In this document: positions 20,766 through 27,063 of the stretch, in pieces
Numbering within the stretch: position 1 is the first letter of the stretch
Layout of the letters: each line of letters opens with the position of its first letter
Assembly (NCBI GenBank): GCA_000310025.1
Contig: FN648635.1
Span: 1-64,000 of the forward strand
Origin: Ectocarpus siliculosus
Lineage: Eukaryota; Sar; Phaeophyceae; Ectocarpales; Ectocarpaceae
Reading direction: 5' to 3'
DNA: 64,000 nucleotides
Program-made: the position numbers and the translations under genes
Notes under the pieces: generated by a model
What the model was told of the DNA's origin: nothing
The model's database searches: none
What the model saw: only the letters and a program-made list of their open reading frames with translations

Positions 20766-22084
20766 AGTTGTTCGTCTGTCGTGGTTATAGCCTGCTGTCT
20801 GGTCTTGTCTGATCATCATGTTTTTTTTATACATTTGTCACCGCACTGCAGCTTCTTTCCCCTATGGTAAACGCCTTTTGCTCGCGTAGCGTTGCACATC
20901 TCCATCGGCAAGCACAATAGATGTTGCGTTGTACGTACGTCATTCATGATGTAGGTTGACGTTTTGCTGTGACGATAGAAATAAATGCAAGATCGGCCGG
21001 ACATTTTTTGTTCTGCTGAGTGAGAGGGACAAAATTGCCGGTCCGCGTTTCTGGTGGTCTCCTGCATTCGGGCGTGATAGTGCGTACTGAACAGATCATC
21101 AGCGAGCATAACTAGCGAGGAGATTGTTAACAGCATCAAATCCCTCGCATCAAAAAGTGCGTACAGCAGTAGGTGACCCGATAAAGTCCAGTGATGGCGA
21201 TCGTCTGCGACATGGGTGCCGATACGATATTTCAAAATCTAGCCAAATATTTTCGATGTTCGACTTTTTCCCGATACTCACCACAGTGACCGATACTCCG
21301 AGTATCGATATTTTGATATCGATATTGCCCAGAAAAACTCAAGCGGCTACATTAAAATGACCCGTGTCTTCCTGTCTTTTTTTGCACATCACGATTGATT
21401 GATCATGGTCTATAGTCAATGCAACTGCAGGCACGACGATACGTACGATGACACACTGCTGAGAGGTAGTGTATTCGGCGACGCGTTTTTTGTGTGTGGA
21501 AGTATCATCATCAATAGATAAATAAATGGAATTGAACCTTCCGTCAAACGAAACAAAAGTGAGTATTAATTTTCCTGTCTAACAAATGCACGAGGACCCT
21601 CAGACTGGAAGCCTATAGTCGTATACCTGCACTGACTGACTGACCCAGGTAGCACGACATGAAGAAAAAACGCCAAGAAGAACGAAGGACAAACAAGTCA
21701 GAGCTACATATACATGCTACACACTACGACTGCACTACAGTGTTGCAAAATCATATCCGCCTGCATCCAATCCGAAAGTCGAAAGGCTCATGTCCTCGTT
21801 GGTTTGGGATGCGGGACCGGACGTGGTGCGCAGAGGACAAAGCAGAGAGGGTGTGGTGTGTGATGTGTGCTGTGCATCTCGCAAGCTGGGCGCATAATAG
21901 GGGGGGGGCGTGCTATCAACTACAGCTAGGTATTTGCTAGTTTAGGGGCCCCGTGTCTGAAAAAATCCGTATTGGTATCGTCGATATTCGATATTCGATC
22001 TCGATACATTATCGACACATCGGCAATATTATTCATCGATTTGGATAGTGAGTATCAACTATAAATCGGTATCGAATGTGGCAA

Positions 22085-22221
22085 TTCGATACGCGATTGC
22101 ACATCCCCAACGGCAAGCACAATAAATGTTGCGTTGTACGTACGTCATTCATGATGTGGGTTGACGTTTTGCTGTGACGACAAAATATATGCAAGATCGG
22201 CCGGACGTCTTTTATTCGGCT
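22085..22221 (+). repeat. Family A fragment, left of the 3.6-kb TIR element
   Basis: GGCAAGCACAATAAATGTTG through GATCGGCCGGAC matches 20,895-21,005. The copy resumes at 25,800 on the other side of the element. Confidence 0.75.
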
Positions 22222-22621
22222 CAGGGCCCATAGGTAGGGCTAGCCGGGGACGCAATATATAAAAACTCGCGCGAAGCGCGAAAAAATGTTTAGAGGCGTT
22301 TGCACAGAATTTGGCTTTTTTTTGTTTTTTTCGGACACACCTCTGATCCACTGCTGTTTGTAGGCCGTTCTCCTCGAACTGTGAGCCGATTTAGAAACGG
22401 TTTCTTGCACTGCATTCTCAGGCACGTCTAGCATACCGTCCAACTCAATATCGTTGTCGAAAGACGGCAGATGGCGCCGGAAACAAAAAACACACCACAC
22501 ACACACACACATCGCCTGGGCAGCCGTGGTGCTGTATCTGCTGCCTCAATCGTGGGCCGTTTGTTTGTAATTTCCTTTACCATCCAAAATTCTGGGCGAC
22601 TGCCGTACAAGTAGTGCACAT

Positions 22622-23726
22622 TTAAATGACCGAACGGCCTTTCGAACCGGTAGGCAAATATTTACATTCTTTGTAATATGTCCAGCTCTTCTCGACCCGG
22701 CAGTACAGGCTAACCATCACCATCCTCCACGTGTCGTATGAGCCCTTGCATACATCGCACGGGCAGGGCAAAAACGTCCTCTTTCTTTGCTTCGGGTTCC
22801 AGACTTTGTCCGACTCTGGGCGCCGCAAGCTCTGGTCCACTGAACATTTTTTCGCCGGTTCGACGTCGGGCTGGGGCGCTGAACCTTTCGCCTTATGTCC
22901 ACGGCGATTCCCAGGGTGTTCAGCAGGGTATGCACCCTTGTGGTGTCCGCATTCGGTGCAGGCCCTGAACTGCGGCAACGACGCCCGCGCCGCCCGCGCC
23001 GCCACCGCCGCCCCCGCCGCCCCCGTCGCCCCCGCCGCCCCCGCCGCCCCTGCCGCCCCAGACCCAGACCCAGACCCAGCCAAGATCGGCGACCCCTCTA
23101 CCGGGTCACCTCCTGCCCCGGAGGAGCCCCCTACAACCACGCCCTGCCCGCTGCCTGCCCCCCCCTCCCTTGCCGCCGCCCTCATCGCCGCCATCGTGGC
23201 GTCCGCGACCGCGGCGGAAGCAGTCGGTAGGCCGCCGACGCCACGGTTGGGGGCAGGCATTTGCGGCGAGCGGACGGATCCGACGGCATCATCGGGTTGC
23301 CTCAGCGAAGCCGTGAGCCGTCCAATCGGTCCTTGAACGGGCCCGAGGGTGTTGAAGAAGTAAAACCAGAGCTCCCTCTCTGCAGGTGGAAGAGGAACGA
23401 CGGCCCCCTCAAAGCCGCAATCTGGAAGGTCGCTACAGGTTCCCGCCCACGAGGTGAAAACTGCCACTCTGCGTCCGCTCGGCACACCATCTTTCCCTCC
23501 ACTCGATTTGGATGATGCTCTGACGGAGGGAGCCGCAGGCAGCGGCTACCGCCTCCGGGTCGTACACGATGGCAGGGGTGAACTCCAGATGCAGCTGTGG
23601 CAGGAGCTCCAACTGAACTCCGGCGTCCACCTCGTCTTCCAGATAAAGACTGATCCACGTTGCCTCCTCAAACTCGCGAAATACCCGTTGCAGCAGTTGA
23701 CGGTCATCACAGCAGTCATCTGACAA
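22622..23726 (-). CDS. 3' exons of the TIR-element gene, uncertain structure
   Basis: Two overlapping open stretches: 23,726-23,433 reads LLQRVFREFEEATWISLYLE and LPQLHLEFTPAIVYDPEA, protein-like; 23,485-22,622 reads ERELWFYFFNTLGPVQGPIG, an alanine-rich region, then ACTECGHHKGAYPAEHPGN and FLPCPCDVCKGSYDTW, which contain cysteine/histidine groups able to bind zinc. How they splice together is not clear from the sequence. They lie between the element's TIRs and so are probably part of its gene. Confidence 0.4.
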
Positions 23727-23888
23727 AGTTATGCGTCACGCGTCACGCCACGGGGCCGGAAAGGATTGAGGAGACAATACTGCAAAATCACTGCGAAAAT
23801 AGCAGGCCTGACACCGGTCTACAACCTCGAAAAGCTAAGCAAGTCTACAATCATTTCGCAAATTACCTGTGTTCCACAGAGTAGGAAC

Positions 23889-24002
23889 CTTGAAGCCATT
23901 GCGAACGAATCGCATGAAAAAAAGCTTCAACTCCTCCACCAGCTCGCTCAAGGCACTCGTCTTCATCGGACGCTGCCAGACCAACTCCAATCCAGAAGAA
24001 AC
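23889..24002 (-). CDS. Following exon of the DUF6729-like gene
   Basis: Acceptor TTCTAG before 24,002 and donor GTTCCT after 23,889. The exon completes the split R codon and reads FFWIGVGLAASDEDECLE, then AFFHAIRSQWLQ. Order and phase fit the upstream exon. Confidence 0.5.
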
Positions 24003-24073
24003 CTAGAATTCGATGCCACGAAAACATGACTGATGAAGTTTATCGAGCGAAAACTCTTCATCGCATGCTGAAC

Positions 24074-24310
24074 TTAACGAAACCCCATGATGTACGCCAC
24101 GTCGTGCTCCATGAACACCCGGCGTGGCCCCTTAGGGTTCCAGCCATCAGGTGCGCCCTTGCCCCCACATCCTGGACAAGGAACTGCCTGGAGCTCTGGG
24201 AACAAGAACTCCGGTATCCATACCAATACTGCCTTCTGATAAAACCGGTCGAGTTTCGGTAGGCCTGGGCGCGCGTAAATTTGAGGTAGATATGTCAGAA
24301 CATCGGGCAC
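24074..24310 (-). CDS. DUF6729-like exon with CPGCG and GWNPKGPRRV
   Basis: The exon reads VLVWIPEFLFPEL, CPGCGGKG, DGWNPKGPRRVFME and AYIMGF. To my memory a hydrophobic VW-P-F block, CPxC, GW-x-x-x-x-PRRV and MGxR are the signature of the domain of unknown function DUF6729, found in repetitive eukaryotic genes. It splices (donor after TTTC near 24,082) to the next exon at 24,002 in frame, giving GFRFFWIGVGLAASDEDE. Function is unknown; the single CPxC suggests half a zinc site, the other half perhaps in a later exon. Confidence 0.6.
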   Translation of the reverse strand: MPDVLTYLPQIYARPGLPKLDRFYQKAVLVWIPEFLFPELQAVPCPGCGGKGAPDGWNPKGPRRVFMEHDVAYIMGFR

Positions 24311-24437
24311 GCGAGAAAAACAAATTAGCCTACCGGGGGACGGGATGTTTTTTTCCTGGACGATTTAATCCGAAAAGAACGATAGATAGGCAGAGCTATC
24401 CCCTCCCCCCTATAAAAAGAAACAACTCCTCTGGCGT

Positions 24438-25048
24438 ACCTGGTGATGGTTGGAAAGTGGCACACTTCGGACGGACGAGCGGGTTGTCAAACGGGAACCG
24501 GCCTTTCACACCACCTCCCTCGTGGGTGATACTCCGGTCGATCTTGTCCTTCACTTCTTGAAAGAAGCGTTCCTGCGCACTGGATATTGAAGTATCATCA
24601 TCGTCGGCCCCTCCACCGGCGGCTCCTTCAGCCCCACCTCCTCCTGCTCCACGACCTGGCGCTGCTGCCCGTCGCCCCCCTCCCCCACCTCCCCCACGGC
24701 CGCTCATCCCCCCTCCTCTACCTCCTTCACGGCTGCTCAGCCCCCCTCCTCGTCCTTGTTGGCGCGCTACGTGGTCTTGACGTCCGCTTGCTGCTGGTCT
24801 CGCCGCTGCCGCCCCCGCGGCGGCGGCTACTTCGGCTGCTACTGCTGCGAGTTGTGCCAATGTTGCTGCCCCTGTTGCGGCCTCTGGTGCCGCTGACATT
24901 GGCAGTGCTGTTGATGCTTGTAGTAACCCCTCACCTATTTGAGAGGATAGCACTGCTCGAGCTGCCCTCCCGCGTACTTGGGAGGCTTCATGAGCAAAGG
25001 CTTTACCCTTGCCTTTGCTGGGAGGGTGCGGGACGGGTACTGCCGCCA

Positions 25049-25079
<31 letters not shown>

Positions 25080-25583
25080 TGCTGTTGATGTTGCTGCTGC
25101 TGTTGTTGCCGTTGTTGTTACGAGCTCTGTTGATGCTGTGGCGAATCCTTCCCCTACGGTTGGGAATGGTGGTGCCCGAGCTTCCTCTCCATCTACCCGA
25201 GAGTGGTCACCCTCATCGTCCAAGCCAGGAGGCGACTGCTGCTGTTGTGTACCGGCGGGAGGTGGAGTGGACTCGCCGATGGTTGGTGCCGCCGTGCTTG
25301 ATGAACCACCAGAATCCCCAATAACGTCGACATCGCCGGCGGATGACGCGCTCCTAGCACCCGCACTGCTTCCCTCCCCACTCTGGTCTTCACTCACCCG
25401 TGGCCGCTTTGATGATGGCTGGGCTTGCGGGTTCCGGGAAAGCATCCTTGCGAACCCGTCCGTCTGATTCCTCTGCTGCGCAGCTATCTTTTCCCTCTCC
25501 GCATTCGTTTTCCGACCCGCTTTTTGTGCGCCATCCTTGGGCTTTGACCCTTGATTTTGCCCCACGGGGAGCGCTGGCTCCAC
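24438..25583 (-). CDS. First large exon of the TIR-element gene, low complexity N-terminus
   Basis: About 380 codons: basic start (KAGRKTNAEREKIAAQQRNQ), then S/G/A-rich, a poly-alanine run coded by GCT/CTG repeats near 25,045-25,110, an RGG-rich region, an acidic patch DDDDTSIS and a more ordered end (AQERFFQEVKDKIDRS). It can end at a CAG/GTACGC donor near 24,438. It looks like a disordered nucleic-acid-binding tail. The start codon is the first one in the frame and is not otherwise supported. Confidence 0.5.
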
Positions 25584-25799
25584 GGTTGCTGGGTGGGAGG
25601 GCTGTTGTGCTTTCCGTTGTGGTCTGTGTTGGGTGTCATCATGTGTCTCGGCAGCAGCGGCCCAATTCGGGTGCTTTGGCCCAATCAGCCGCCGTCGTTT
25701 TTCATGTCTTGGGGTCGTTTTTCATGTTGGGACGTGTTGATTGACCAATGAGATTGCGTCGTTTTTCATTTTTCTGGCCCTACCTATGGGCCCTGTCCC

Positions 25800-25924
25800 T
25801 TTTATTCTGCTGAGTGGGAGGGACAAAATTACCGGTCCGCGTTTCTAGTGGTCTCCTGAATTCGGGTGTGACAGTGCGTACTGGACAGATCATCAGCGAG
25901 CATAATTAGCGAGGATATTATTAA
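25800..25924 (+). repeat. Family A fragment, right of the 3.6-kb TIR element
   Basis: Continues the copy broken at 22,221 (AGTGGGAGGGACAAAATTACCGGTCCGCG) and is broken again at 25,925 by the foldback pair; it resumes at 28,320 with AACAGCATCAAATCCCTC. Confidence 0.75.
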
Positions 25925-27063
25925 GACCCATGTTTATGGTCGCCAAATCTTTGAAAAAAACTTCAAATGTTGTCCAAACATTTGCGCGCGAATATCTGCC
26001 AGAGGAACATTTGACTACCGTTTTATGGGCGAAAAAATCTTTATCGTGTGGTTTTCTCGAAATGCATCGCACGTGTGGCGGGAATCGTGGTCTACTCCTA
26101 CCAAACGATTTGTGACAGGCAAACCTCAAATGCGTCATGGCGACTGAATGTAACGAGCTCGCAAAGGGCTCCCCACAACCCTTGATGCACTGAGCTGATG
26201 CTGTGCCCGCCAATATGTGGCGATAGCGCTCCGGGCGTGCGAGAAAAAATGTTCTCGGTGTCAAACAGAGACCAAAACGTGCGTCAGCGCTTCCCAACGG
26301 CAAAAAGTCGGCCGCTTGAGAGGACACGTGAGTACAAAACTATCCAGCTCTCGTCCTCTAGACCATCGATTCATGTTTTGTCTTCTTGGGTGTCTTGTCC
26401 ATCAACGACTCTCATCCGGTTGTGCGTGGGTTAGCAGTGGCCGCGCTCAGCCGGCAGGGAGGCACATCGTTGTGCGCGCAAAGTTGTGGACACAACGTTT
26501 TTTCCGGTCTATTTTTTCACTTGAATATAGAGTGCTTGTTCCTCCGTCCCAAAAAAGACTTTTTCAACACATCGAGTTCACAGCGACGCGCCCCCCTGCC
26601 TGTTGAGTACGTCCACTGCTGAACCACGCACACCCGGATGAGAGAGCGGTTGATGGAGAAGACACCCAAGAAAACAAAACATGAATCGATGGTCCTGAGG
26701 ACGAGAGCTGGATAGTTTTGTACTCACCTCTCCTCTCAAGCAGCCGACTTTTTGCCGTTCGGAGACACAAACCACGCTTTGTCCGTGCCCTCCAAACCAC
26801 CCCTGTCTGCTTGTTTTTTGTGCACGCTTGACGAGCTCCCGCCATGTATCAGCCGGCAAAACATTGACACGGTAACTCTAGGTTGTCCGGATCCCTCTAT
26901 GAGCTTGGTACGTTGAGTGTGCGCTGCGCAGTGGTTGGTGTTTAGGACGGAAGGGGCGGTCGTCTACAAATAATTCCGCCGCTCTTGGGAAATATATTCG
27001 CGACCTGCCCCATTTCAAAATGTTTGAGAATATTGGGTCAAACGAGCGGCTTTTGCCCCATAA
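25925..27063 (+). mobile_element. GACCCATG-family foldback element, first of tandem pair (right end missing)
   Basis: Starts with GACCCATGTTTATGGTCGCC and is nearly identical to 27,064-28,185. The middle is a hairpin: about 26,300-26,470 pairs with 26,590-26,760 (GCAAAAAGTCGGC...GCCGACTTTTTGC). It stops at TTTTGCCCCA, where the second copy begins, and lacks the right TIR. No transposase. Confidence 0.8.

Follow-up and report, generated by a model that had tools for sequence, protein, structure and literature searches.

The question raised by this locus is whether a protein encoded within a transposon mobilises that transposon or is carried by it as cargo. The element lies at positions 22218-25799 of the window, meaning the whole stretch of DNA analysed (64,000 nucleotides, positions 1 to 64,000 of contig FN648635.1, Ectocarpus siliculosus assembly GCA_000310025.1), and contains a spliced minus-strand gene for a protein with a DUF6729-like domain. 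A sequence-only reading had seen this gene in place of a recognisable Asp-Asp-Glu (DDE) transposase. Comparison with copies elsewhere in the host genome makes it very probable that a Dada-related DNA transposon of the cut-and-paste type is present here as a non-autonomous copy with an internal deletion, and that the gene encodes its transposase and not cargo. DUF6729 most likely makes up the N-terminal part of this transposase.

Ends and target site of the element

The element was delimited by termini common to its siblings and by an exact 8-bp duplication on either side.

22218-25799, minus strand (gene strand): transposon element, 3582 bp, internally deleted copy
22218-22240, plus strand: left terminal inverted repeat (TIR) GGCTCAGGGCCCATAGGTAGGGC, 23 bp
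25777-25799, minus strand (read on that strand): right TIR GGGACAGGGCCCATAGGTAGGGC, equal to the left repeat at 21 of 23 positions
22210-22217: left target site duplication TTTTATTC, 8 bp, exact
25800-25807: right target site duplication TTTTATTC, 8 bp, exact
25694-25707, 25714-25727 and 25758-25771, minus strand: three subterminal 14-mers of the type ATGAAAAACGAC, a direct repeat family and candidate transposase-binding sites
20892-21130: paralogous empty target site, a repeat without the insertion, from the joined-flank comparison

The 23-bp ends, GGNNCAGGGCCCATAGGTAGGGC, include 19 consecutive perfect positions, CAGGGCCCATAGGTAGGGC, as had been noticed from the sequence. No perfect inverted pair of at least 18 bp was found in 500 mononucleotide shuffles of positions 21501-26500, and a 16-bp pair appeared in three of the 500 (arms at least 200 bp apart). 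The ends also recur genome-wide: exact GGNNCAGSGNCCATRGGTAGGGC gave 21 matches against none for a reversed-pattern control, and a looser pattern with up to two mismatches gave 76 against 28, so that the weak matches are in part due to chance. The right end at 25799 stands as first placed. The left end had been put at 22222 and is corrected to 22218; a start four bases inside the true end is probably the source of the 12-bp target duplication reported previously, which is replaced by the 8-bp one. The empty-site relative proved to be real and paralogous. When the flanks were joined minus one duplication, 219 of 238 aligned bases were identical to 20892-21130, which is collinear with the joined flanks and unbroken across the insertion point.

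The gene in the window copy and its siblings

The first 279 bp of the element were used as a query against the host genome (189 Mb, 492 contigs). Of the 15 matches, five, including the window, covered the query at 95-100% and the other ten matched at 76-80% over its first 65-102 bp. The five copies (the window and L009-L012) are termed family 1 and have in common their left end as well as the DUF6729 gene. L010 (5025 bp) and L011 (4973 bp) are two-ended; the right end was not found in L009 and L012, where the left end only was seen, and a right-end fragment of 439 bp was located in L033. An exact 8-bp duplication flanks all three two-ended copies of the family. The possibility that the TIRs belong to a short miniature inverted-repeat transposable element thus does not apply to the two-ended siblings, which are 5 kb long, though related copies of 3.6 kb do lack a transposase match (see below). 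The gene in the window copy comprises the following parts.

24440-25565, minus strand: exon 1, low-complexity N-terminal tail (poly-Ala, RGG), from the window sequence read against L010
24078-24264, minus strand: exon 2, encoding the first half of DUF6729 including CxxC; tblastn match to the relative L024 at 24265-24077
23867-23986 (start approximate), minus strand: exon 5 remnant joined to intron 2, about 1.0 kb being lost between
23433-23719, minus strand: exon 6, DDCCDDR motif with the putative second catalytic Asp, and the beginning of the exonuclease region
22628-22969, minus strand: C-terminal Cys/His-rich region (CTECGHHKG..AEH..CPCDVC)

The motifs VWIPEF..CPGCG..GWNPKGPRRV picked out earlier are present. 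Their assignment to DUF6729 (PF20499), as first proposed, was supported by the spliced protein of L010 (E=3.9e-8, 33.6 bits against a Pfam cut-off of 27); the window exon taken singly falls under that cut-off (12.1 bits, E=0.15). DUF6729 matches were obtained in all five family-1 copies, and the spliced exons of L010 contain a zinc-type pattern, CxxC-x32-CxxC. The L010 gene is itself broken: its reading frame is interrupted in exons 1 and 4, and exon 1 also contains a stop. L012 retains a fuller exonuclease region.

Compared with L009-L012, the window copy is missing about 1.0 kb from intron 2 to exon 5, a loss that takes in exons 3 and 4 and the putative first catalytic Asp. That no DDE signature was visible in the window is explained in part by this deletion; siblings and relatives have DDE-like motifs, and the window keeps the exon for the second Asp (51% identity to L024, E=0.003). 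Where L010 has its inferred start ATG, exon 1 of the window copy has GTG, the splice donor after exon 2 is TT in place of the GT of L010, and no match to the DxxH/E part of the core was found in the window copy. Lacking the first-Asp exon, a DxxH/E match and the start ATG, and with the exon-2 donor changed, the window copy should not make an enzyme. DxxH/E matches were likewise absent from all five family-1 copies, and none of 25 genome-wide matches fell at those places; the queries came from diverged relatives and might not detect a piece that has changed very much. From these absences family 1 in this assembly looks non-autonomous.

The main block of the C-terminal region is 98.6-98.7% identical in L009-L012. 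Its matches to L028 and L029, relatives treated below, are weak (32-33% identity, E=0.002 and 0.019), and the spacing of a CCHC zinc finger, such as Dada transposases have at the C-terminus, is not clearly recognisable. The C-terminal exon of L010 contains about 0.48 kb, beginning with a TTG repeat, that has no counterpart in the window or in L012; judged by length, L009 and L011 have it as well. A deletion in the window would be one reading of the difference; the comparison suggests instead an insert in the longer copies.

Relatives with a fuller predicted transposase core

A fuller core was found in L024 (contig C34), where an open frame runs across eight joined exons with GT..AG introns, in a model without the start and the far C-terminus. 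The spliced protein gave DUF6729 at E=3.2e-13 (50.2 bits), with a zinc-type pattern CxxC-x31-CxxC, and a 3'-5' exonuclease, DNA_pol_A_exo1 (PF01612), at E=4.5e-17. The nearest structure in the PDB to the exonuclease was a Werner exonuclease (WRN homologue 2e6l, E=3.7e-25), and EXD2 (6k17) matched at 5.2e-17. The L024 domain is thus homologous to the WRN/EXD2-type DEDDy exonucleases and differs from them in being embedded in a transposase-like protein. GDASFK and SDECCDDR, containing the first and second Asp (D1 and D2), sit between DUF6729 and the exonuclease. Both Asp residues are invariant in the three relatives aligned, and their spacing is 75 residues in both L024 and L026. Downstream of the exonuclease, DIFH or DLFH is followed by GTN..E in L024 and L026, and DxxH and E-type stretches are found there in L025, L028 and L029 also. 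Six peptide patterns from L024 had no match in viral contigs.

A 6.5-kb stretch is 99.7% identical between L028 (C3, at about 6.01 Mb) and L029 (C34, at about 0.79 Mb). It contains a Dada-like gene from the exonuclease as far as the E motif, and DUF6729 found no match there.

Comparison with Dada transposases

This order of motifs recalls the Dada transposases, for which the available part of the Dada paper gives an N-terminal CCCC zinc finger followed by D, D, DxxH and E (Kojima & Jurka 2013, PMC3706591). In Dada-U6_DR the finger residues are C389, C394, C429 and C432, and in the Dada elements of Laccaria and Ectocarpus a DEDDy exonuclease lies between the second D and DxxH (PMC3706591). Here a CCCC pattern was found at the N-terminal side in the spliced exons of L010 and in L024, the triad motifs with DxxH after the second D (GDASFK, DECC, DIFH/DLFH, GTNCTE/GTNDVE) in L024 and L026, and the exonuclease at the corresponding place in L024. 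As far as the description goes, Dada-1_ES (Ectocarpus siliculosus) and Dada-1/2_LB (Laccaria bicolor) resemble the present elements in the CCCC finger, the D, D, DxxH, E order, the position of the exonuclease, the multi-exon gene, the internally deleted derivatives and the 6-bp spacing of some tandem copies, for which Dada-U1 provides a case (PMC3706591). While no Pfam transposase superfamily matched the exons, the motif order does point to a published one. Dada-1_ES was compared by description only, and the window's family could already be in Repbase or published. A repeat survey of Ectocarpus lists, in the part available, one Dada family of 15 copies (PMC12477816), which may or may not be the window's family. 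No mention of DUF6729 was found in the literature searched.

Related families and their target sites

TIRs are present in three related families. Family 2 (L013-L020) has ends like those of family 1, with eight two-ended copies of 3571-3603 bp in L014-L020. Seven transposase queries gave no match in L013-L020, and five of the 19 open reading frames listed for L014 were scanned without a Pfam transposase match. Family 3 (L027, L030, L031 and L034) retains exon 2 of the gene, so that this DUF6729 exon is common to families 1 and 3. The subterminal motif AAAAACGACGC lies close to one end in both families (in L027 and L030, the corresponding end) and is a candidate binding site.

Among the 12 two-ended copies of the three families, an exact 8-bp duplication was found in seven, 6 bp beside tandem units in three and no exact duplication in two; L034, a further copy, has a duplication of 9 bp. 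Head-to-tail copies of family 2 lie exactly 6 bp apart, with GCGTCC (plus strand) between them in L016 (C15) and ATAAAA in L017 (C8). In L031 (C9), near 1492 and 8813, one end is without its terminal 15-16 bp, yet CGGAAGCC is present on either flank, which would fit the integration of a trimmed end.

RNA genes were also sought at the insertion sites. ARAGORN found no tRNA in any of the 22 loci given to it, and Rfam found no snRNA, tRNA or 5S in 14 of those 22, the only match being MIR8622; Rfam gave nothing on the window. The MIR8622 match, at L030:1025-1230, adjoins a family-3 element. MIR8622 is an Ectocarpus microRNA, and together with the Dada-type architecture the match would point to a brown-algal, Ectocarpus-like host.

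A C-terminal fragment of a DDX39B/UAP56-like helicase lies in two exon-like pieces at L034:2350-3168 (C472; Pfam Helicase_C 7e-16, PDB 1e-32). It was found at nine places between or beside family-3 ends, on C472, C3, C4, C9, C10, C19, C24 and C33 (two). A tenth close match, on C16, is away from family-3 ends and may be the source gene. The arrangement points to Pack-type capture of the fragment by family 3, itself a Dada-related transposon.

Outside the element, a foldback at 26292-26763 of the window has 122-bp arms, 92% complementary, with 228 nt and an inner inverted pair between them.

Weighing of the alternatives

Several observations weigh against the assignment to a Dada-related transposase. 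The Dada link and the predicted RNase H fold are argued from motif order and the published description. With the D1-D2 profile, nothing in the PDB was matched at E up to 10, and the D1-D2 and DxxH-E pieces gave no Pfam transposase domain, only a weak DUF6694 match at E=0.075, so the fold is a prediction. No complete family-1 transposase was found, and family 1 itself may never have had the DxxH/E part. Around L024 and L025 no convincing family-1-like ends or long inverted repeats were detected, so that these fuller-core relatives may not be mobile by such ends. The 8-bp duplication was not exact in five of the 12 two-ended copies. Finally, the elements here have 23-bp TIRs and duplications that are mostly 8 bp long, and no target in a small RNA gene was found for them, whereas Dada elements, in the text available, are without TIRs, have duplications of 6-7 bp and, where their ends are definable, all lie within small RNA genes (PMC3706591). 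Because of the disagreement over TIRs, duplications and RNA genes, the elements are classed as a Dada-related lineage and not as canonical Dada.

The alternatives account for less of the evidence. If the DUF6729 protein were captured cargo in a TIR transposon moved by an unrelated transposase, the want of a complete transposase within the family-1 TIRs would be understandable, and a like-ended family does carry captured host-like sequence in the form of the L034 helicase fragment. However, the domain occurs in every family-1 copy, its exon 2 is kept in families 1 and 3, and L024 joins it to the DDE-like motifs and the exonuclease in one spliced frame, the relatives having D, D, exonuclease, DxxH and E in a single gene. 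DUF6729 is thus probably not cargo, and this explanation is considered very unlikely.

A Kyakuja-Dileera-Zisupton (KDZ) element, a kinship raised by the sequence-only reading, would fit the 8-bp duplication, which is that of Zisupton in the text available (PMC12730594), and such elements are listed for Ectocarpus in the accessible part of the repeat survey (PMC12477816). This relation found no support when the spliced L024 protein was compared with Pfam to a limit of E=10: the exonuclease, DUF6729 and a weak SR-25 match were the only results, the HMMER filters dropping most weak matches in such a scan. Pfam presumably includes a KDZ transposase model. A KDZ origin is accordingly rated as highly improbable. 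The 8-bp duplications would equally suit a hAT or MuDR-like element that had gained DUF6729 and the exonuclease, and the DxxH motif is described as common to hAT, MuDR, P, Kolobok and Dada (PMC3706591). Against this, the Pfam scans gave no hAT or MULE domain and the insertion of an exonuclease at that place is described for Dada (PMC3706591), so that there is little likelihood of an origin in the hAT or MuDR-like groups.

Proposed mechanism and implications

For the preferred Dada-related transposase, the following scheme can be proposed. DUF6729, the CCCC zinc-binding part with CxxC..CxxC, would bind the transposon ends. The catalytic core would be a split DDE domain made up of GDASFK, (T/S)D(D/E)CC, DxFH and GTN..E, motifs taken from the relatives. 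The WRN-like DEDDy 3'-5' exonuclease, placed by homology between the second D and DxxH, may trim 3' ends; Kojima and Jurka proposed for Dada that the exonuclease processes cleaved 3' ends (available text of PMC3706591). Cleavage by the transposase would take place at the GGNNCAG ends, which would then be joined to the target with an 8-bp stagger, generating the 8-bp duplication. The window copy would either have been moved in trans or have decayed after insertion.

In a broader and more tentative proposal, which is possible though somewhat short of an even chance, there exists a brown-algal branch of Dada type with DUF6729 and a WRN-like exonuclease, TIRs, 8-bp duplications and no targeting of RNA genes, driving several families including gene-carrying ones. 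If this is true, trimming of ends by the exonuclease during integration could explain both the 6-bp tandem junctions and the shortened L031 end beside an intact duplication, and, within Dada, RNA-gene targeting would be either derived or lost. On the preferred explanation itself, DUF6729 gains a likely role as the N-terminal zinc part of Dada-type transposases, and a Dada-type enzyme is linked to TIRs and to apparently untargeted insertion. Since the published Dada elements with definable ends are, in the part of the description available, all in small RNA genes, an untargeted relative would provide a contrast for the study of target specificity, and the fusion of transposase and exonuclease would make the role of end trimming testable.

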